Assembly: GCA_949296775.1 (NCBI GenBank)
Contig: CASFQA010000001.1
Location: forward strand, 496,001-560,000
DNA from: an uncultured bacterium
GTDB lineage: Bacteria; Bacillota_I; Bacilli_A; RFN20; CAG-826
DNA length: 64,000 nt
Reading direction: 5' to 3'
Shown here: positions 4,274-14,666 of the stretch, in pieces
Position numbering within the stretch: the first letter of the stretch is position 1
Layout of the letters: each line of letters opens with the position of its first letter
Notes under the pieces: model-generated
The model's input: only the letters and a program-made list of their open reading frames with translations
Told to the model about the DNA's origin: nothing
The model's database searches: none
Translations under genes and position numbers: made by a program

Positions 4274-4908
4274 AATCTCCGCAAAGCCTCAATCCTTTCT
4301 CGGTAATCCTCGTGGCCATAGAGGTAGGACCCGGCCACCAAGACCTCGGCCCCGGCCGCGGCGGCCCGCCGGGCGGTGGTTCCGTTGATCCCCCCGTCGA
4401 CCTCGATGAGCCAATTATATCCTCTTTCATCCTTTTTCTTTTTCAAATAAGCGATTTTGCCGGTCGCCTCCTCGAGGTAGGTTTGCCCCCCTTTCCCCGG
4501 CTCGACCGACATGACCAAAATAAGGTCGAGATCGCCTAGATAGGGCTCAAGCGACTCAACCGGGGTGGCGGGCTTGATCGAGATTCCGACCTTGCAGCCT
4601 AAGCCGCGGATATACTCGATATCCCCCTTCACGTCATCGCTCGCCTCCAGATGGAAGGTGATCAAAGACGAATGGGGGGCGTAAAGCGCGGCATAGCCCC
4701 TTATGTCCTCCACCATGATATGGGTGTCCTTGAATATATCGACGTCTTCGATCGAAGGCAGGTAGCCGATAAGCGAGGTGACGTTCGGCACGAAGCAGCC
4801 GTCCATCACGTCGAGATGGATGAACTCGGCCCCGGCCTCCTTGACTTTGATCACCTCGTCGCGGAAGCGGGATTTATCGGCCGAAAGGACGCTGGGGGCG
4901 ACGATCAT
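4270..4908 (-). CDS. rpe: Ribulose-phosphate 3-epimerase
   Basis: Interconverts ribulose-5-phosphate and xylulose-5-phosphate in the pentose phosphate pathway. The 212-residue TIM barrel starts MIVAPSVLSADKSRF and has the metal-binding signature HLDVMDGCFVPN (about residue 32), the segment LVMSVEPGKGGQ with the phosphate-binding region, and EVDGGINGTTA with the second catalytic aspartate. Length is typical. It overlaps the kinase gene upstream by an ATGA, consistent with its conserved place after prkC in Firmicutes. The intervening rsgA found in most relatives is absent here. Confidence 0.95.
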   Translation of the reverse strand: MIVAPSVLSADKSRFRDEVIKVKEAGAEFIHLDVMDGCFVPNVTSLIGYLPSIEDVDIFKDTHIMVEDIRGYAALYAPHSSLITFHLEASDDVKGDIEYIRGLGCKVGISIKPATPVESLEPYLGDLDLILVMSVEPGKGGQTYLEEATGKIAYLKKKKDERGYNWLIEVDGGINGTTARRAAAAGAEVLVAGSYLYGHEDYRERIEALRRL

Positions 4909-5780
4909 TTGAAGCCGAAGATCCGCGACAGCAGACCCCTCCGTTCGCCCCGAAAGCTCTCTTTGTCCTTCATCGCCTCCAATATCGCCTCATGCATCGA
5001 GGAGGAGGTTAGGTAACGCTCCTCCGGCCGTTTACGGCAGGCGGTGATGATGATCCGCTCGATCGATTTGGGGAGGGAGGGGACCAGCCGGCTCGGCTCG
5101 GGGAACCGTTTCTTGATTTGCTTTAAGGCCACTTCCTCCAAGTTCTCCCCGTCGAAAGGCACTTGGCCGGTCAAACACTCGTAAAAGACCACCCCCATCG
5201 AGTAAATGTCGTTGGCGATGGAGGCCGGGGCGCCGGTCAATACCTCGGGGGCGCAGTAATAGATCGTCCCCTGGATGGCGTCCCCTTCCTCCGGGGTGCC
5301 GATGGGGGCGGCGATGCCGAAATCGCTGATTTTGATCGTCCCGTCGCTTAAGTAGAACAGGTTGTCGGGCTTGATGTCGCGGTGGATGATCCCATGCCGG
5401 TGGATATAGTCGATCCCGGCGGTGAGCTGGAGCATGACGTCGCAGGCGTCGGTAAGCGAGAGCGACATCGCGAAATTGAGCTTGTCGCGCAGCGTCTGCC
5501 CCTTGATGTATTCATTGGCCATATAGGGCCGGTTATCGACGAACCCCCGGCCATACACCTTGACGATATTGGGGTGGTTCAAACTGGCGGCCGCCGCCGT
5601 CTCGTTATTGAACCGGGCCAAGTTGACCGGGTCCTTCAACAGCTCTTCCTTCATGACCTTAAGCGAGACGATCCGCCGATAGATGAGGTCGTTGGCCTCG
5701 TAGATATCGGCCATGCCGCCCGAGGCGATGCGGGAAGTCACCCGATAACGGGAATCGATCCGATCGCCGATCTTGATCAT
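4905..5780 (-). CDS. PrkC-like Ser/Thr protein kinase, catalytic domain only
   Basis: A 291-residue Hanks-type kinase. Visible motifs: glycine loop IASGGMADIYEA, ATP-anchoring lysine in VSLKVMK, catalytic loop HRDIKPDNLFY, DFG in ISDFGIAAP, and GTIYYCAPEV closing the activation loop. Firmicutes PrkC/StkP proteins normally continue with a transmembrane helix and PASTA repeats that sense peptidoglycan fragments; this protein ends at RRGLLSRIFGFK just after the kinase lobe, so it should be cytosolic. Partnered with the PP2C phosphatase upstream (ATGA overlap). I chose the ATG at 5780 because of that overlap and the usual start IGDRI.DRY. Confidence 0.9.
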   Translation of the reverse strand: MIKIGDRIDSRYRVTSRIASGGMADIYEANDLIYRRIVSLKVMKEELLKDPVNLARFNNETAAAASLNHPNIVKVYGRGFVDNRPYMANEYIKGQTLRDKLNFAMSLSLTDACDVMLQLTAGIDYIHRHGIIHRDIKPDNLFYLSDGTIKISDFGIAAPIGTPEEGDAIQGTIYYCAPEVLTGAPASIANDIYSMGVVFYECLTGQVPFDGENLEEVALKQIKKRFPEPSRLVPSLPKSIERIIITACRKRPEERYLTSSSMHEAILEAMKDKESFRGERRGLLSRIFGFK

Positions 5781-6523
5781 GGTTTGCAAGCCTCGAAATA
5801 GGCGATGGCGATGTTATCCGACCCGCCGGAGGCGTTGGCTTCCTCGATGAGGGAGGCGACTTTCTCATCCGGCCTTTCATCGCCGGAAAGGATGGCTCGG
5901 ATCTCCGATTCGGGGAGGTTGTTGTATAGCCCGTCGGAGCAGACCAAAACCGCTTCCCCGGCATAAGGATGGACCCCGATTTCGGCCGAGGAGGAAGGAT
6001 AGATGCCAAGGGCGTTGAGCAAGACGTGCCGATCCTCCCGCTTATTGGTCTCCTCGAAGCTGATCTTCCCGGTCCGATAAAGGTAATCGACGTAGGTCTG
6101 ATCGGTCGAGAGGCGGACCAATTCATGGCCTTTCAGCCAATAAGCCCGCGAATCGCCGACGTTGGCGATATATAGATGCTCGCCGCTTATTAAAGCCAAG
6201 CAGCAAGTGGTCCCCATATCGTGGTAACGCTCGTTCCGGTTAGCTTCGTTATAGATGAGTTTATTGGCCCCCTTAATGACCCTAGAGAGCCACATCTTCA
6301 GCAAAAACCTTGGCAATTTGGGCTTTTTATCGAAAGCCTCGACTAAATAGTCGCGGGCGAGCTTGGAGGCGCAGTCGCCTTTGTTCTGCCCTCCCATCCC
6401 GTCGCAGACGAGCAAAAACACCTCGCCTTGGCTGTTGGTCAAGCTGGCGGCTTGGTCCTCGTTGGCGATCCGGACTTTGCCGACGTCGGTTTTCGATTCA
6501 AATGCCCCTTTGTACCGTTTCAT
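5777..6523 (-). CDS. prpC: PP2C-family protein phosphatase, PrpC-type
   Basis: Removes phosphate from Ser/Thr proteins and is the usual antagonist of the PrkC kinase. The 248-residue protein carries the PP2C motifs: N-terminal RIANEDQ, metal-binding VCDGMGGQNKGD, GDSRAYWLK, LSTDQTYVDYL, VLVCSDGLYNNL and ASGGSDNIAIAY with the metal-binding aspartate. The start at 6523 overlaps the rlmN stop codon as ATGA; an upstream extension would be read inside rlmN. Length is typical for PrpC. Cytoplasmic, with probable substrates including the kinase encoded next to it. Confidence 0.95.
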   Translation of the reverse strand: MKRYKGAFESKTDVGKVRIANEDQAASLTNSQGEVFLLVCDGMGGQNKGDCASKLARDYLVEAFDKKPKLPRFLLKMWLSRVIKGANKLIYNEANRNERYHDMGTTCCLALISGEHLYIANVGDSRAYWLKGHELVRLSTDQTYVDYLYRTGKISFEETNKREDRHVLLNALGIYPSSSAEIGVHPYAGEAVLVCSDGLYNNLPESEIRAILSGDERPDEKVASLIEEANASGGSDNIAIAYFEACKP

Positions 6524-7563
6524 TGTTTTCTCTCGTATTTGACCCTCAGTTGGCCGCAGGCGGCGTCGATGTCGCCCCCGAACTCCTTCCTGACCGTGGC
6601 GTTGATCCCCTTTTTGAGCAAGGCGTCGTGGAAGCGGCGGACGTTTTCCTTGGGCGAGCGCTTCCACTTCATCTCCTTCACCTCGTTATAGGGAATCAGG
6701 TTGACGTAGGCGAAGAGGCCGTTGTCATGGATAAGATGGGCCAGCTCATCGGCGCATTCAAGCGAATCGTTCACCCCCGATAAAAGGATGTATTCGAAGG
6801 TGACCCGTCTCCCGGAGGAGGCGAGGTAGTCCTTGATCGCCAAAACGAGCTTATCCAGCGGGTATTTCAGCGACACCGGCATGATTTTGTTCCGGATCCG
6901 GTCATTAGGCGCGTGGAGGGAGATGGCGAGGTTGGTCTGCAGCCCCTCTTTCCCATAACGGACGATCCCCTCGGGCAAACCGCAGGTCGAGACGGTGATG
7001 TGGCGGGCCCCGATGGCCAAGCCGGCTTGGCAATTGGCGATCCGGATGAATTCCATCACGTTGTCGTAATTGTCGAAGGGCTCCCCGGTCCCCATGACGT
7101 TGATGTGGGTGACCCGGGCCCCGTATTCGGATAAAACCTGGTTCATGACCAGCAGCTGGCCGACCATCTCGGCGCTGGTGAGCCCGCGTTGTTTCTTAAG
7201 CAGCCCCGAGGCGCAGAAAGCGCACCCCATCGAGCAGCCGACTTCGCTGCTCACGCAGATCGGGCAGCCGTAGTCATAAGGCATCATCACCTCTTCGACC
7301 TTGGCCCCGTCCTCCAGCTGCAAAAGCAATTTGACGGTCCCGTCGCTTCCGATTTGCTTGGCGATGATCGAAGGGAGGGTCAAGCAGAAATCCCGCTTCA
7401 ACTCCTCCCGGAAAGAAAGCGAGATATCGGTCATCTTGTCGAAGTCCAGCACCCCTTTGCCGTAAACCCAGCTGAAAAGCTGCTTGGCGCGGAACTTGCT
7501 TTGCCCCCGGGAAAGGAAGCAATCGGTCATCCGTTCGAGGGAATAGCCGAGGAGGTTCTCCAT
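6520..7563 (-). CDS. rlmN: 23S rRNA (adenine-2503-C2)-methyltransferase RlmN
   Basis: A 347-residue radical-SAM enzyme that methylates A2503 of 23S rRNA and, in this family, also A37 of some tRNAs. It shows the iron-sulfur motif CSMGCAFCASG, the segment NVMGTGEPFDNYDNV, TVSTCGLP and FEYILLSGVNDS, and the C-terminal catalytic cysteine in DIDAACGQLR. The N-terminal accessory domain includes FRAKQLFSWVYGKGV. Full length. It sits directly after the rsmB-like gene (9-base gap) and overlaps prpC, the usual Firmicutes order. Confidence 0.97.
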   Translation of the reverse strand: MENLLGYSLERMTDCFLSRGQSKFRAKQLFSWVYGKGVLDFDKMTDISLSFREELKRDFCLTLPSIIAKQIGSDGTVKLLLQLEDGAKVEEVMMPYDYGCPICVSSEVGCSMGCAFCASGLLKKQRGLTSAEMVGQLLVMNQVLSEYGARVTHINVMGTGEPFDNYDNVMEFIRIANCQAGLAIGARHITVSTCGLPEGIVRYGKEGLQTNLAISLHAPNDRIRNKIMPVSLKYPLDKLVLAIKDYLASSGRRVTFEYILLSGVNDSLECADELAHLIHDNGLFAYVNLIPYNEVKEMKWKRSPKENVRRFHDALLKKGINATVRKEFGGDIDAACGQLRVKYERKQ

Positions 7564-7572
7564 TCTTCCCTC

Positions 7573-8895
7573 CTACTTGGCGGAAGCGCAATGGGCGGGC
7601 TCGCTCGTTAAGGCGCTCATCTCCCCAAAGGGGACGGCGATCGAGGCGACTTTCGGCCCTAAGGACAATTTGGCGTAATAGCAGGCGCAGCCGTATTCGT
7701 CATAGGGGAAATGCTGCTTTTCCTCGACCAAGGTGAATTCGCTATGCTTGGAAAGGAATTCGGCGACGGCGTTATGTCCTTCCTTCTTGGAGATGGTGAG
7801 GACGCAATAGATGAGGGTCCCCCCGTCCTCGACGTAGGAGGCGCACCCTTCCAAAGCCTTGGCTTGGTTGGCGATGACCTGATCCATCCTTTCCTTATCG
7901 TAATGGAGGAAGAAATCCGGGGTGGTGGCGACCGAATCGAAGCCGGTCGAATCGGGTAAGCAGAAAACCAGCTCGGCCTTCGAGGAGATATAGGCCTCCA
8001 TCGCGGTCGGGTCGGCGATTTGGAAAAGGTTGACGTTCCGGAGCCCCAGCTGCTTGATGAGCCGCTTGGCCTCGAGCAAATCGTCCTCGTTCGGGGTGGC
8101 GATGTTGACCATGACCTCGTTGAGGTAGGAGGCGATGACCTCCTTATCGGCCCCGCCGTTGTCCTTCCCGCAGTATAAGACGACCGAGGAAGGGGCGCTC
8201 ACTTTGTTGTCGTCGAGCAGTTTCTTGACGATCGGGCGGATCTCATAGGCGTGCCGGTCTTTGATCGGGGGCAAGGTCCGCAAGGCGGCTTTGCCCGAAT
8301 AGGCGTAGACGTCGCTTACCGAAGTCGGGGTGAAGTCCTCGTTATGGCGGAGGTCATCGGTCTCCGGGACGTTGCGGAGGCGGACGAAGGGCTGATAAGG
8401 CCGGGCGAACCGCTTGATGGTCTTATAGGTGTTCGAATACCCGAAATGGTGCATGATCTTCAGCGCCCAGATCGGGACGTTATAACGGAGGGAGAGGTAT
8501 TCGAGCGAGGAATGGTCGATCCCTTCGGGGATGTAGGACTCGGCGTGGCCGGCTTTATCCAATAAGGGCAGGCACCGGGCGAACTTCTCTTCCCCGAGCG
8601 CTTCCTTCAGCTCGGCGTCGATCTCCTCTTTCGGGAAATGGCGGAAATAGAAATCGTTGGCCAAAACGAGGCAGAGCATCTCTTTCTCCCCGTCGGTCAA
8701 GTCGAGGTTCTCGCAAAGCTTCTCAAAGAGGATGTCGTGGCGCAGCTCGCAGCCGACAAGCCCCGCCACTTCCTTCCGATAAGGCCGGAGCTCGACGTTT
8801 TTCTGGAACATCGCCTTCAGGGCCTCCCCGAAATAGACGTTGTCGTTTTTGACGCTGTGCAGGATCTGCAAGGCTAAGTCGAATTCTTTGCGCAT
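7573..8895 (-). CDS. RsmB-like protein lacking the catalytic cysteines (probable pseudoenzyme)
   Basis: A 440-residue protein in the rsmB position. The N-terminal 130 residues look like the NusB-like domain and the rest like the RsmB methyltransferase fold: residues 355-385 read EDGGTLIYCVLTISKKEGHN, matching the GG.LVYSTCS...EEN region, and the end reads CACYYAKL like RsmB FFYAKL. The key motifs are altered. Motif IV (DAPCSGTG) is CLPDSTG at 312-318 with the cysteine position occupied by proline. Motif VI (YSTCSI) is YCVLTI at 363-368 with leucine at the nucleophile. The SAM loop (CAAPGGKT) is CGKDNGGADK. A GGAGGAAT site supports the start. It may bind 16S rRNA without methylating it; this is inference. 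Confidence 0.7.
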   Translation of the reverse strand: MRKEFDLALQILHSVKNDNVYFGEALKAMFQKNVELRPYRKEVAGLVGCELRHDILFEKLCENLDLTDGEKEMLCLVLANDFYFRHFPKEEIDAELKEALGEEKFARCLPLLDKAGHAESYIPEGIDHSSLEYLSLRYNVPIWALKIMHHFGYSNTYKTIKRFARPYQPFVRLRNVPETDDLRHNEDFTPTSVSDVYAYSGKAALRTLPPIKDRHAYEIRPIVKKLLDDNKVSAPSSVVLYCGKDNGGADKEVIASYLNEVMVNIATPNEDDLLEAKRLIKQLGLRNVNLFQIADPTAMEAYISSKAELVFCLPDSTGFDSVATTPDFFLHYDKERMDQVIANQAKALEGCASYVEDGGTLIYCVLTISKKEGHNAVAEFLSKHSEFTLVEEKQHFPYDEYGCACYYAKLSLGPKVASIAVPFGEMSALTSEPAHCASAK

Positions 8896-8907
8896 GGATC
8901 ATTCCTC

Positions 8908-9435
8908 CTATTTGCCTTTTTTGGCTAGTTCCTCTTCAAAACCGGCGAAGGCATTGCCGAGGAATATCTGGTTGGGGTCATTGGGGTCAAGATCGGCCCG
9001 GTCGGCGGGATTGGGGCCTTCGGGGTCAATATCGCCCTCCTCTTCTTCCTCGCCATAGGTGAAGGAAACGTCGGCTTCCTTGATGTTATCGGAAGCGAGG
9101 TAACGGGGGTATTTCTCGTTGATCTTCTCATAAGAGGAGCCGGAATCGAAGTAGTCGAACTCCAGCTCGACGTGAATGGAGAAGAGGGAGAGGGTATCGA
9201 GAAGATAATGGGCGACTTCGTGCTCCCGTTCCCGGAACTCCGCCGGGGCACGGACGATGACGAGGGTATTCCAGCTCGTCTGCTCCGCCCCGGCATGGAA
9301 AATCATCGAATTGGGGGCGAAGAAATTGATGGCCGCTTCGGGGACGGCGTAGATATCGGCCAATTTGGCGGTATGGTCTTTGGAGTAATGGCCGACCACG
9401 AATTGGTCGAGCCCGAGGATGGAAATGGTGATCAT
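8908..9435 (-). CDS. Unidentified acidic protein between priA and the rsmB-like gene
   Basis: A 175-residue protein, MITISILGLDQFVVGHYSKD at the start, that I do not recognise. The first 120 residues alternate beta-like and helical stretches, including REREHEVAHYLLDTLSLFSI. Residues from about 130 on are acidic and low in complexity (YGEEEEEGDIDPEGPNPADR), then IFLGNAFAGFEEELAKKGK. I chose the ATG at 9435; a TTG at 9489 would also fit and touches the priA stop codon. In most Firmicutes def and fmt occupy this slot; neither is present. It lies in the gmk-rpe operon. Confidence 0.6.
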   Translation of the reverse strand: MITISILGLDQFVVGHYSKDHTAKLADIYAVPEAAINFFAPNSMIFHAGAEQTSWNTLVIVRAPAEFREREHEVAHYLLDTLSLFSIHVELEFDYFDSGSSYEKINEKYPRYLASDNIKEADVSFTYGEEEEEGDIDPEGPNPADRADLDPNDPNQIFLGNAFAGFEEELAKKGK

Positions 9436-9485: not shown

Positions 9486-11687
9486 TCAATAATCAAGGGG
9501 GTCGACGTCGACGTAAAGCCGGACCCCGCCTTTCCCCGAGAGGGTATCGATCAGCTTCTTCAGGTATTCCTTGATGCCCTTCCCGTCCTTGAACTTGACG
9601 AGCAGCTCCCGCCGGTAAAGCCCGCCTTCGAGCTCGAAATAGGGAGTCAAGGGGCCGAGGCAAAAGACGCCGGGGAAGCCTTGGGAAAGGATGTTGGCTT
9701 TGATCTCGGCGGCGGCTTGGATCGACTTCTCGGCCGCGTTGGAGCCGATTATCAAATTGGCGAGATGGCAATAAGGCGGGTAATTGCCGGCTTTCCGGTT
9801 TTGCATCTCGACCCGGAAAAAGCCATCGTAATCCTGCTTGGCCCCCAAGGTGATCGCCGGGTTGGTCGGGTTGAAGGTCTGGATGACCGCTTCCCCCTTC
9901 CTTTCCCCGCGGCCCGCCCGACCGACCGCCTGGGCGATGAGGGAGAAAGAGGATTCGCTGGAGCGGAAACAGGGGATCGATAAGCCGACGTCGGCGAGAA
10001 GGACCCCGACTAAGGTGCAGAGGGGAAAGTCGTGGCCTTTGGCGATCATCTGGGTCCCGACTAAGATATCGAACTCCCCGCCTTTCATCTTGAAGGTGAT
10101 GTCCTCGGCCTCGCTTTTGATCCGCGAGACGTCGCTGTCGAGCCGGGCGATGCGGGCGGAAGGGAATAGCTCGGCCAAATACCTGCACACCCGCTCGGTC
10201 CCATATCCCGCCCGGGCGATGTTCGGCGAATGGCATTCGGGGCAGCTGCCGTCGAAGGGGGCGACGTAGCCGCAATGATGGCACTTAAGCATCATGTCGG
10301 CCTTATGGAGGGTAAGATGGGAGCCGCAGGAAGGGCAAACGAAGACGTATCCGCAGGAAGAGCAGGTCGAATAGGAGGCATAGCCCCGCCGATTGAGCAG
10401 CAGGATGGTCTGCTCCCCTTTGCTCAGCCGGTCTTTGATCTTCTCGATGAGCCTTTTCGAGAACATCCGCGCCGAGGGCAGCAAAGCCGAGGGGCGGGAT
10501 AAATCGATGATCTCGGTCGTTGGAAGGGGTTTGGCGTTGACCCGGCTGTCGAGCCGGCAAAAGCCGTATATCCCGGCCTCGGCCTTGGCCCGGGTCTCCA
10601 AAGTCGGGGTGGCGGAGCCTAAGACCAGCTTGGCCCCGCTTTGCCGGGAACGGAGGATGGCGACTTCCCGGGCATGGTAATAAGGGGAGCTGTCCTGCTT
10701 ATACGACTCGACGTGCTCTTCGTCGAGGATGATGAGGCCGATGTTTTCCAAAGGGGCGAAGACGGCGCTTCGAGCCCCGACGACGACCTTGGCCTCGCCC
10801 CGGGCGATCCGGCGGTATTCGTCGTATTTCTCAGCCGGGGTCAAGGAGGAATGGAGGATGGCCACCTCCTTGCCGAAGCGGGAAATAAAATAGCGCACCA
10901 TCGCCGGGGTCAAGGATATCTCCGGCACCAGCATCAAGATGGTCTTGCCCCGCTCTAGGTAAAAAGAGGAGAGGTGAAGATAGACCTCGGTCTTGCCCGA
11001 TCCCGTGACCCCTTGAAGCAGGTAGACTTCCTTCTTCCCGGAGGTGATCTCGTTAAACACCGCCTGCTGGGCGCCCGTCAGCGGGAAGGGCTCGCTCCGA
11101 GGGACTTCACTTAGCTGCATTCGGTTGATTTCCTGTCTAAAAACGCGCAAATACCCTTTATCTATAAGGGCTTTTACGATGGCGGGGCTGCCGGCTTCCT
11201 TCTTTTTGCAGCGTTTCCTTTCCTTCAATAAGCGGACCGCCTCGATCTGCTTCGGGGTCAAGCCCCCCTCGTCGTCTTTAAGCAATTCGCAATAGGATTC
11301 ATAGGCGACCTTCGGTCCTTTAAGCGAGCTTCGGGCTGGCTTCAAAGAGCTTGGTAGCATGGCCTGCAGCAAAGCGATCCGCGGGCAAAGGTAATAGCTC
11401 GCCAAGGCTTCGGAAAGGGACAAAAGATCATCCTTTAGCAGGCATTCGTTGTCCAAAACCGAATCGATCCAGGCGATCGGATACCCCTTCTCCTCCTCCA
11501 GCTGAGGCTGACTGAGGCTAGTCGGGGTCACTTTGGTGACGAAGCCGACTAAAGGACGGGGATTGTTCCCGAAATGGACCAAGACCCGAAAACCGACCCC
11601 GACTTCAACCCCGTCGGGGCATAGGTAGTCGAAAGGCCGGTCCAATGAGGAAGAAGGGAGTTCCAGCAAAACCTCGAGCAGCTGCAT
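9486..11687 (-). CDS. priA: Primosomal protein N' (replication restart helicase PriA)
   Basis: A 3'-5' DNA helicase that reloads the replisome at stalled forks. The 733-residue protein has the PriA 3'BD domain at the start (MQLLEVLLELPSSSLDRPFD), Walker A in LQGVTGSGKTEVYL, Walker B/DEEH in IILDEEHVESYK, the helicase motif GSATPTLETRAKA, the two zinc sites (CSSCGYVFVCPSCG and CHHCGYVAPFDGSCPEC) and QAVGRAGRGERKGEA. The open frame continues upstream to 11927, but that part lies inside gmk and has no PriA similarity, so I start at the ATG at 11687. It follows gmk by 14 bases. No clear Shine-Dalgarno site. Confidence 0.97.
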   Translation of the reverse strand: MQLLEVLLELPSSSLDRPFDYLCPDGVEVGVGFRVLVHFGNNPRPLVGFVTKVTPTSLSQPQLEEEKGYPIAWIDSVLDNECLLKDDLLSLSEALASYYLCPRIALLQAMLPSSLKPARSSLKGPKVAYESYCELLKDDEGGLTPKQIEAVRLLKERKRCKKKEAGSPAIVKALIDKGYLRVFRQEINRMQLSEVPRSEPFPLTGAQQAVFNEITSGKKEVYLLQGVTGSGKTEVYLHLSSFYLERGKTILMLVPEISLTPAMVRYFISRFGKEVAILHSSLTPAEKYDEYRRIARGEAKVVVGARSAVFAPLENIGLIILDEEHVESYKQDSSPYYHAREVAILRSRQSGAKLVLGSATPTLETRAKAEAGIYGFCRLDSRVNAKPLPTTEIIDLSRPSALLPSARMFSKRLIEKIKDRLSKGEQTILLLNRRGYASYSTCSSCGYVFVCPSCGSHLTLHKADMMLKCHHCGYVAPFDGSCPECHSPNIARAGYGTERVCRYLAELFPSARIARLDSDVSRIKSEAEDITFKMKGGEFDILVGTQMIAKGHDFPLCTLVGVLLADVGLSIPCFRSSESSFSLIAQAVGRAGRGERKGEAVIQTFNPTNPAITLGAKQDYDGFFRVEMQNRKAGNYPPYCHLANLIIGSNAAEKSIQAAAEIKANILSQGFPGVFCLGPLTPYFELEGGLYRRELLVKFKDGKGIKEYLKKLIDTLSGKGGVRLYVDVDPLDY

Positions 11688-11701
11688 GAGGATATTGTAA
11701 A

Positions 11702-12268
11702 CTACTCGGCGGCGTTTTTGATGATATCGGCGATTTCCCGCGCCGCCCTTTCGACCGAATCGTTTAAGACGACGTGGGAATATAGATGGGACATCGTAAG
11801 CTCGGATCTCGCTTTCTCCAGCCGCTCGGCGATAGCCTCCTCGCTTTCGGTCTTCCGCCCCCTTATTCGATCCTCGAGTTCCTTGATCGAAGGCGGCATG
11901 AGGAAGATCGAGACGGCATCCGGGCATTGCTCAAGGACCTTCAGCGTCCCCGAGACCTCGATCTCGAGCAAAACGTTCTTGCCTTCTTCCCGCATCCGCT
12001 CGACTTTATCTTTCGGGGTCCCGTAGCAATTGCCGACGAATTCGGCATGCTCCAGCAGGTTGCCCTCTTCAAGGTTTTTCTCGAATTCGTCGCGGGTGAC
12101 GAAATAGTATTCCCGGCCATCGACCTCCCCGGGCCGAATCGGCCGGGTGGTCATGGAGACCGAATAGTAAAGGTCCAAGCTCGGGTCCTTCATCAGCGCT
12201 TGGCGCACTGTCCCCTTGCCGACCCCTGAAGGGCCGGAGAGAATGATGAGCAACCCTTTCCGTACCAT
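11702..12268 (-). CDS. gmk: Guanylate kinase
   Basis: Phosphorylates GMP to GDP in nucleotide metabolism. The 188-residue protein starts MVRKGLLIILSGPSGVGKGT, with the P-loop GPSGVGKGT, then the GMP-binding segments SMTTRPIRPGEVDGREYYF and LLEHAEFVGNCYGTP, and the lid-region arginine segment DRIRGRKTESEEAIAERL. Length is slightly short but complete. It is first in the operon that continues through priA to rpe. The start codon lies only 12 bases after the predicted -10 box and has no Shine-Dalgarno site, so its mRNA leader should be only a few bases. Confidence 0.96.
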   Translation of the reverse strand: MVRKGLLIILSGPSGVGKGTVRQALMKDPSLDLYYSVSMTTRPIRPGEVDGREYYFVTRDEFEKNLEEGNLLEHAEFVGNCYGTPKDKVERMREEGKNVLLEIEVSGTLKVLEQCPDAVSIFLMPPSIKELEDRIRGRKTESEEAIAERLEKARSELTMSHLYSHVVLNDSVERAAREIADIIKNAAE

Positions 12269-12371: not shown

Positions 12372-14486
12372 TTATTTTGTCGGGAAGTTGTTCCGGTTAA
12401 TGATAGTCGTCCCGTCCGCGGCCGTCAGGGAGAAGAGGCAGCCTTTGAGGCCGCTGTTATTCCAGTTGCAGGGCGCAAAGACGATGTCGATAGTCTCATC
12501 GATATAATCATCGACCCAGCTATAGCCTCCGCCCCCGGAATATAGCTGAGTGCTGGCCTCACCTTGGTTAATGTAGTAATTGGTGTAGTACTGATTGCCG
12601 ACCTTGGTGATAGTGACGTCTTCCAGCACATAGGCTTTCGCCGTTTCGTCCAAAGGTTCGGCGGAGTCGAGTATTTCCGCTAAAGTTTTGCCGGTGATGA
12701 AGGAAGCGGACGGATAACCCCCATCTCCATATTCAGCGACGGTCAAAGTCGCGTCATAAAGTTTGATTTGGCTATTAACGCCGTTCTTTCCGTTGAATCC
12801 GCGGGTCGCTTCGACGACGACGGTGTCGCCGATGTCAAAGGAACCGTCGAAAACCTCGCGGCCGCCAAGCACCTCGGTGGCGATGACGCCGGTTTCGTCA
12901 ATCAAATAGAAACCGATCTTATTGACCAGGCCGGGGCCGACCACCCCTTTTACCGTGACTTTGTCCCCGTCGGCGGCATCGATGGCCTGCCTGACGGTGA
13001 TGGTCTCCACCGCGGCGGCGACCTTGGCTTCAATAGTCAGGGTCGCGGAATAATTGGCTTGGCCAGCGAGCGAACCGGTGACCGTCACCTTGACCGATTT
13101 GTTCTTGCTCGGATCGACGTGGAGGATGACTTTGCCCTCCTCTTCGGCGAACCATACCGCCGAGGTATCGTCGGAACTGTAAGACAAACCGGCATTGGCG
13201 ATCCCAAGGATTTCCGAACTGACCGAGGTTAGGAGTTCTTCCGAGGGGTCTGCGCCATAGCTGCCGGCGAATTGGGGAACGCCATAATAATCGACGACGA
13301 ATTTCGGCGCATCAGCCAAGTCAAAGGTAAATTTCTCGTCGCTCACTTCGATTGGAAGCATACGCCACACCCCACCGGTCGAGCTCATCTTGGCGTTAAG
13401 GACGACAAAGTACATATAGACGATTTGCTGATCGTAGTCATCAAGCCAAGCGAAATCTTTGCCGTTGGCTTGGGTATAAGTATAGGACCCGCTTGTTTGA
13501 TCGAGATCGAGAAGGTAATAATTGGTATAGCCGGTCCCGACCCGTTTGTCGACGAAAACCGGGGCTTTATAAAGGATGGAGGTGATGTCCTCGCTCCAGT
13601 CGGAAGTCACGACGTCGCGGACGGTGGTTTCTTTGGCTACGGCATCGTAATCGAAATCCGCGCCGGATTGATGATCGACCAAAACGCAATCGGTGATCTG
13701 ATGGCATCCTAAGTATCCGAACTTATCGGCGCTTGCTTGCTCGTCCTCAAGTACCCAGTGATCTTTCTTTCCGACCAAAGTCACTTCTTCCCCCTCTTCG
13801 ACTTGGGCGGCGAGGCGAGAGTCATAAACGTAAATCGAGGCGGTATTATCGGCTAACATAAAGCCGATTTCCGACAGGTTGATATTATAGGTGAAGCGGA
13901 GGACCGTCCCTTTGATTCGGACGTAATCGCCGTCTTTGACTTTCCGAGCATCGGCGACGCTCATCAATTGATAATCATCGGGATTGATTTCCTCTTCGCT
14001 GGATTTGGAAACGAAATCAAGCAGATAGCCCGGATCGAATTCGTAAGTCCCTTGATAATTCTTAACTTGGCCTTTAAGCAAGACCAAATCGCCTTCTTCG
14101 GGAGCTTCGGGCAATTTATCGAAGTAGGTATCGTCCTCACCGTGGACCCCATAGCATTCGAAGGTGCCGGTCTCATCGCTGATGACCATTTGGCCATAAG
14201 TCGGATTGGTAATCTCTTTGACCGTAGCCGCGATGTAATAGGTCTCGGTCGAACGCTCGCCGTCGGCGACGGTCGCCCCGACGGCATTTAGTTCAGCGCA
14301 GGTCGAAAGTTCGTACTGCTTCCATTCAGCGGGGATGCCGTCATCCTCGCTGCTAGTTGGGGTGGTGGATTCCGATGGGGTCTCGGATTCAGACGGACTA
14401 GCCGACTGACTTGAGGTGGTGGTTGGACCGCAGCCGGCTAAAAGCAACGCGGCCGCGAACCCGTAGAAAAGGCTTTTGGTTTTCAT
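12372..14486 (-). CDS. Large lipoprotein with repeated OB-fold-like domains
   Basis: A 704-residue exported lipoprotein. The signal peptide MKTKSLFYGFAAALLLAGCG ends in a lipobox LLAGC (Cys19), followed by a Ser/Thr/Glu linker to about residue 48. Three regions resemble OB-fold (YhcR/DUF5689-like) modules: about residues 60-170 (YIAATVKEITNPTYGQMVIS), 175-265 (GDYVRIKGTVLRFTYNIN) and 500-590 (GDKVTVKGVVGPGLVNKIGF), each with the pattern hydrophobic strand, G-hydrophobic-V, then DETG or similar. A Big-like segment (LHVDPSKNKSVKVTVTGSLA) precedes the third. Such modules often bind nucleic acid or sugars, but the target is unknown. GGAGG precedes the ATG at 14486. Single-gene unit ending at a terminator. 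Confidence 0.75.
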   Translation of the reverse strand: MKTKSLFYGFAAALLLAGCGPTTTSSQSASPSESETPSESTTPTSSEDDGIPAEWKQYELSTCAELNAVGATVADGERSTETYYIAATVKEITNPTYGQMVISDETGTFECYGVHGEDDTYFDKLPEAPEEGDLVLLKGQVKNYQGTYEFDPGYLLDFVSKSSEEEINPDDYQLMSVADARKVKDGDYVRIKGTVLRFTYNINLSEIGFMLADNTASIYVYDSRLAAQVEEGEEVTLVGKKDHWVLEDEQASADKFGYLGCHQITDCVLVDHQSGADFDYDAVAKETTVRDVVTSDWSEDITSILYKAPVFVDKRVGTGYTNYYLLDLDQTSGSYTYTQANGKDFAWLDDYDQQIVYMYFVVLNAKMSSTGGVWRMLPIEVSDEKFTFDLADAPKFVVDYYGVPQFAGSYGADPSEELLTSVSSEILGIANAGLSYSSDDTSAVWFAEEEGKVILHVDPSKNKSVKVTVTGSLAGQANYSATLTIEAKVAAAVETITVRQAIDAADGDKVTVKGVVGPGLVNKIGFYLIDETGVIATEVLGGREVFDGSFDIGDTVVVEATRGFNGKNGVNSQIKLYDATLTVAEYGDGGYPSASFITGKTLAEILDSAEPLDETAKAYVLEDVTITKVGNQYYTNYYINQGEASTQLYSGGGGYSWVDDYIDETIDIVFAPCNWNNSGLKGCLFSLTAADGTTIINRNNFPTK

Positions 14487-14666
14487 AAACCCTCCAATTA
14501 CGGCACCCCTATCTGGTGCCATTTATCTTAACCCCCCCCTCACAATCATTTCAATCCCCAATCGGCAAGTTCCATCCATTCGGATAAGGCCTCGGATCGC
14601 GGAAAACGACTGCTTCTATTGCGTTCTCGATAAAAGCGATCGGGGGAAGAGCGAGCCAAAGCGAAA

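Follow-up and report, generated by a model that had tools for sequence, protein, structure and literature searches.

A full-length RsmB orthologue, very probably a pseudoenzyme, has lost its SAM-binding and catalytic residues in three families of one Bacilli order

We analysed a stretch of 64,000 nucleotides from an uncultured bacterium of the Bacilli (the window) and found that one of its genes encodes an orthologue of RsmB which is very probably a pseudoenzyme. At the level of sequence, the comparison shows that an ancestor shared by three or more families of one Bacilli order had lost SAM binding and catalysis, and that the protein has stayed full length since; these families make up a large set of bacteria from gut and rumen. 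A pseudoenzyme had already been suggested by the first-pass annotation of this DNA, and the comparison strongly supports that view and extends it to three families. We consider it somewhat better than an even bet (about 0.55) that the dead RsmB retains a methylation-independent role in ribosome assembly, acting on the folding of the 16S 3' domain. The features concerned are the following:

7573..8895, minus strand: dead RsmB homologue, 440 aa (hhalign against E. coli RsmB gives E=1e-14 across 394 columns; highest-ranking PDB fold 1sqf)
8904..8909, minus strand: Shine-Dalgarno sequence AGGAGG, 8 nt ahead of the rsmB start codon (ATG)
8908..9435, minus strand: small upstream gene, 175 aa, DUF1904/MIF-fold-like product with an acidic tail
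6520..7563, minus strand: rlmN, directly downstream of rsmB (TIGR00048, 374 bits, above the cut-off)
9486..11927, minus strand: priA, upstream (TIGR00595, 552.6 bits, above the cut-off), open reading frame as listed
8149..8178, minus strand: place of the SAM-binding loop (motif I; residues 240-249), without the consensus DxCAAPGGK
7942..7959, minus strand: position of motif IV, residues 313-318 (LPDSTG), Ser316 aligned with Cys325
7795..7809, minus strand: position of motif VI, residues 363-367 (YCVLT), Leu366 aligned with the presumed nucleophile Cys375

The rsmB frame is intact for 440 codons on the minus strand, and the plus-strand frame is interrupted by stops. The earlier description of a full-length protein with a good ribosome site in a conserved operon, given without the strand, is borne out by this frame, by the AGGAGG and by the adjacency to rlmN, which is kept among relatives. 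The gene order is gmk-priA-orf-rsmB-rlmN-PP2C phosphatase-kinase-rpe, with orf standing for the small upstream gene. Translation of priA probably starts inside its listed frame, and that of the small gene probably at 9435. A PrkC-like kinase at 4905-5789 has just 294 aa and matches the PASTA-kinase model in its kinase portion only, and a 716-aa lipoprotein-like protein at 12372-14522 has a weak OB-fold match (NF033674, 29.5 of 35 bits). Loss of formylation was considered, as fmt is gone from the operon, but was rejected with fmt matches in 223 of the 245 genomes of the order, including that of the window (G000).

The window protein (P0001) is collinear with E. coli RsmB over its full length when a profile of 74 members of its family is used as the hhalign query and E. 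coli RsmB as the target, with a NusB-like domain, a linker and a Rossmann methyltransferase domain. It stays under the curated RsmB cut-offs (54.5 of 319 bits with PRK14902, 18.6 of 269 with TIGR00563), and the Pfam RsmB/F model covers only its C-terminal part, at 25.5 bits against a cut-off of 27; an intact RsmB belonging to a different family within the order reaches 440 bits with PRK14902, the NCBI RsmB model. The predicted structure, built from only five sequences (mean pLDDT 71, pTM 0.51), is matched best in Foldseek by 1sqf, the E. coli RsmB (E=4.8e-17, TM 0.48), and aligns with it in VIA-align at Z 17.5 and rmsd 7.8 over 364 residues; its fold is nearest to the RsmB structures 1sqf, 1sqg and 2yxl, and the methyltransferase domain is matched equally or slightly better by other m5C methyltransferases. 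Orthology by descent is indicated by the same place in the operon, next to rlmN, and the same place in the tree within the order. As for RsmF, its PUA-like C-terminal domain (PF13636) gave no match in the window protein, the motifs are not intact, and the RsmF of this genome is a separate gene. The protein resembles RsmB (Fmu/Sun, the 16S rRNA m5C967 methyltransferase, E. coli 1sqf/1sqg) in domain order, full-length collinearity, fold and, among relatives, the operon with rlmN, and differs from the E. coli enzyme in having no SAM loop, no Cys375 and no Cys325.

The N-terminal domain of RsmB has a NusB-like fold, and an intact relative of RsmB matches NusB models, which might suggest that the dead protein replaces NusB through this domain. 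This is scarcely credible, since 110 of 116 genomes of the family, that of the window among them, have a match to NusB in a gene of its own, with only 12 of the matches above the curated cut-off.

In the numbering of the E. coli protein, we take Cys375 to be the nucleophile and Cys325 the release cysteine of the RsmB family, and D252, C254, G258 and K260 were used as the invariant residues of the SAM loop. In the window protein these four positions read L240, C242, N246 and A249, and Cys375 is replaced by Leu366, in line with what had been read from the sequence at first, namely that the SAM loop was gone and that a leucine stood at the motif VI nucleophile. The proline that had been placed at the catalytic cysteine of motif IV stands two positions before it, as C325 falls on Ser316 and P314 on A323 in both the hhalign and the family alignments. 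The alignment was also searched for substitute cysteines nearby, a check the first-pass annotation had proposed; C312 and C364 are not conserved in relatives and thus offer no stand-in for the lost catalytic cysteines. The structural residues G359, Y363, E372 and P141 are retained in dead RsmBs. That the protein is still a methyltransferase, with a different chemistry or cofactor, seems highly improbable: Thr367 is invariant in the family and Glu372 is present in all rows, but both are already common residues of intact RsmB, and neither a new invariant nucleophile nor a SAM loop is found.

The loss extends well beyond the window genome. Of the 116 genomes sampled from the family of P0001 (f1), 103 have a relative of it, and sequences were read from 100 of them, with G007, G023 and G032 left out for split or contig-edge matches; 106 rows were aligned (100 genomes, 3 second copies and 3 further contig loci), and dropping 6 near-copies or fragments left 100. 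D252, K260 and C375 are retained in none of these 100 rows and in all 34 intact RsmBs of the alignment, a contrast beyond chance, so that same-family orthologues, whose comparison had been suggested at the outset, also prove to have no SAM loop and no nucleophile. Ten of the 100 have a cysteine at position 325. The catalytic and SAM positions are likewise lost in 20/20 alignment rows of two sister families of the same order (f3 and f5). Canonical motifs searched for anywhere in the proteins were absent from f1 (0/100), f3 (0/10) and f5 (0/11), while the same searches recovered the SAM loop and motif IV in 34/34 and motif VI in 33/34 of the intact set, which comprised 33 RsmBs of the same order and class plus that of E. 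coli. L206, truncated at the 5' end, entered the motif search only, and the intact set excludes L233, a partial sequence whose motifs are intact, and the RsmF-type L235-L237. Four further families of the order (f2, f6, f7 and f8) have an intact RsmB at 9 loci. Among 30 genomes of the class, 24 have a full-length intact RsmB, 1 a partial but intact one, 3 only an RsmF type and 2, both of family f23, a dead RsmB of about 360 aa (L227 1498-2589 and L228 1501-2577, in genomes G330 and G287) in which Ser replaces Cys325 and Asn replaces Cys375. The open-licence PMC literature searched yielded no account of a bacterial RsmB that is dead in nature; for the Mollicutes, one paper reports RsmB in the Spiroplasma group and its absence from the others (PMC4014445).

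All three motifs are present in 29 of 31 RsmF-type genes of the window genome and its family, and since these paralogues are intact in the same genomes, the motif loss concerns RsmB specifically and is no artefact of assembly. In the two exceptions, L048 has a motif VI missed by the pattern, and L047 (G079) reads YSTST in motif VI, with Ser in the Cys position, and keeps its remaining motifs intact. The dead RsmB might serve as a non-catalytic partner of this intact paralogue, as in hetero-dimeric methyltransferases, and a comparison made by hand shows that a strong RsmB/F-family gene does accompany the dead gene in the window genome and in 90 of 103 genomes of the family, with motifs kept in those read. 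We regard this as very unlikely, and an obligate partnership is weakened in particular, because a strong RsmB/F-family gene is not seen in 13 of the 103 genomes, of which 7 reach 90% completeness or more with contamination of no more than 5%.

A first tree of 90 rows, including 34 of the 100 f1 rows, split f1, f3 and f5 from the intact proteins and the f23 pair with a support of 100, with the long f5 row L203 joining at the base on a weak branch. When the catalytic columns were excluded, in a second tree of 14 f1, 6 f3, 7 f5, 2 f23 and 24 intact rows, the three families again fell on one side of a branch, with a support of 99.7. Constraining all dead proteins to one clade was rejected (p-AU 0.0015), and with it a single RsmB death for the whole class, which implies at least two independent deaths. 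The trees place one death of RsmB at the base of f1, f3 and f5, and another elsewhere, in f23.

The dN/dS of rsmB against two sister genomes is 0.117 and 0.096, close to that of priA (0.097, 0.065) and below that of rpe (0.164, 0.122), and purifying selection at about 0.1 argues for an ancient pseudoenzyme, not a decaying gene. Slow decay with no function left would fit two other observations. For a given RlmN distance, dead RsmB has diverged faster than its intact counterpart (mean RsmB identity at an RlmN identity of 0.65-0.75: 0.30 in f1, 0.37 in f3 and 0.33 in f5, versus 0.49 for intact pairs), and no dead rsmB gene was found in genera g6 and g9 of f1, the interval between the small gene and rlmN in g6 being a short gap only. 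Decay is nevertheless unlikely in view of the dN/dS, the full length kept in almost all of the 100 f1 genomes from more than 30 genera, and the invariant residues that persist in dead RsmBs diverged to about 20% identity. The absence from g6 and g9 means that the dead RsmB is useful but dispensable. Genus g6 carries an extra RsmB/F-family gene of 296-297 aa without the PUA-like domain (L140, L141 and L144; Pfam checked for L141), and genus g30 has a second, more diverged dead RsmB copy outside the operon (L137, L138 and L139).

In the assembly role that we propose, the dead RsmB would bind transiently to helix 31 of nascent 16S rRNA, or to the assembling 30S head; binding would prevent local misfolding, and position 967 would stay unmethylated. 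Such rRNA binding is plausible in the light of the methylation-independent action of E. coli RsmB and RsmD, which are reported to reduce the misfolded class of nascent 16S 3'-domain RNA without SAM, RsmB together with RsmD probably covering the helix 31 loop (PMC13004024). Two other papers describe inactive RlmB and RlmL that still help assembly (PMC11194073) and separable roles for NSUN4 (PMC3916286). We counted collinearity, the RsmB-like fold, the kept operon, a dN/dS of about 0.1 and C967 in 59 of 62 16S sites in favour of the assembly role, and acidity, faster evolution, loss in g6 and g9 and A967 in 3 of the 62 sites against it. These sites came from 61 of 245 genomes, in a search that would miss genomes with more divergent ones; G966 is present in 62/62, and the A967 sites are all in f1 (L257 in G057, L262 in G027 and L265 in G180), with both positions presumed from the E. 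coli 16S numbering. To our knowledge C967 is conserved in bacteria anyway, and its retention therefore says little.

The median pI of dead RsmB is 6.3 in f1, 5.9 in f3 and 6.6 in f5, versus 8.5 for intact RsmB, and the window protein has a net charge of -15. The acidic shift lies mostly in the NusB-like domain, whose net charge went from +5.5 to -3, and RlmN from the same loci displayed no comparable shift. This weakens an rRNA-binding role and, with RlmN unchanged, makes a protein scaffold the main rival: the dead RsmB would have left the rRNA, its acidic NusB-like and methyltransferase domains binding proteins, possibly the product of the small upstream gene. We hold this as a real but clearly minority possibility. 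It is favoured by the specificity of the charge reversal to dead RsmB and by newly conserved residues of the N-terminal domain (LVGCxLRH), whereas the gain of positive charge by the linker in f1 and f3 speaks against it.

The small upstream gene bears on the same question. It is a conserved neighbour of priA in f1, f3 and f5. Of 72 relatives, 48 match DUF1904 (PF08921) weakly, with E up to 0.1 and a best value of 6.2e-9, and the window member scores 14.6 bits, under the cut-off of 24.1. Its predicted model is nearest to the DUF1904 structure 4m1a, of the MIF/tautomerase fold, and it differs from DUF1904 in its acidic C-terminal tail and in having no proline after the start Met. A PDB sequence search with the profile gave nothing credible, PHROGs and Rfam searches gave no matches, and no function of DUF1904 was found reported in open-licence PMC papers. 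By family counts made by hand, with one unlisted genome taken as G158 (f3), the gene occurs in 182/190 genomes of f1, 17/18 of f3, 23/23 of f5 and, weakly, 2/4 of f4, and in 0/10 of f2, f6, f7 and f8, which carry an intact RsmB where RsmB was read; 28 class genomes outside the order gave one weak match. This distribution points to a gain near the branch on which RsmB died and would suit a scaffold, but one shared origin is a single evolutionary event. The gene also stays beside priA where rsmB was deleted (g6 and g9), distant relatives adjoin priA in f4, and the two genes lie apart in the f5 genus-53 loci read. An obligate or dedicated partnership is weakened accordingly, and the association may be history.

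A bolder combination, which we think doubtful, is that in the three families the catalysis-free RsmB, having replaced a widespread rRNA-modifying enzyme, forms a protein-only module for 30S biogenesis or quality control together with the acidic MIF-fold protein, whose gain falls on roughly the branch of that replacement. RsmB would then have been selected for a chaperone role and not for the methyl mark, and the class would have seen this conversion at least one further time, independently.

It is a standing question whether rRNA methyltransferases are important because of the methyl mark or because they sit on the ribosome during assembly, and point mutants made in the laboratory are the usual means of studying it; in the dead RsmBs evolution has separated the two at least twice, and the protein was long kept. 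A whole protein kept after losing all its catalytic parts is a natural sign of a possible second, non-chemical job, and dead RsmBs are ready-made proteins for studying action on helix 31 of 16S rRNA that does not depend on catalysis. A weak 'RsmB' match in one of these genomes should not be taken to mean that the bacterium can make m5C967.

Among known systems, mitochondrial METTL17/Rsm22-type proteins, of a different family, keep a non-catalytic methyltransferase fold for small-subunit assembly. NSUN4/MTERF4 of mitochondria, as described in PMC3916286, is similar in that an RsmB-family protein has an assembly role separable from methylation, and different in that NSUN4 remains a methyltransferase, with a partner that has no relation to DUF1904. 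Catalytically inactive variants of E. coli RlmB and RlmKL still aid ribosome assembly according to PMC11194073, but these are laboratory mutants acting on the large subunit, whereas the inactivity of the dead RsmB is natural and old.
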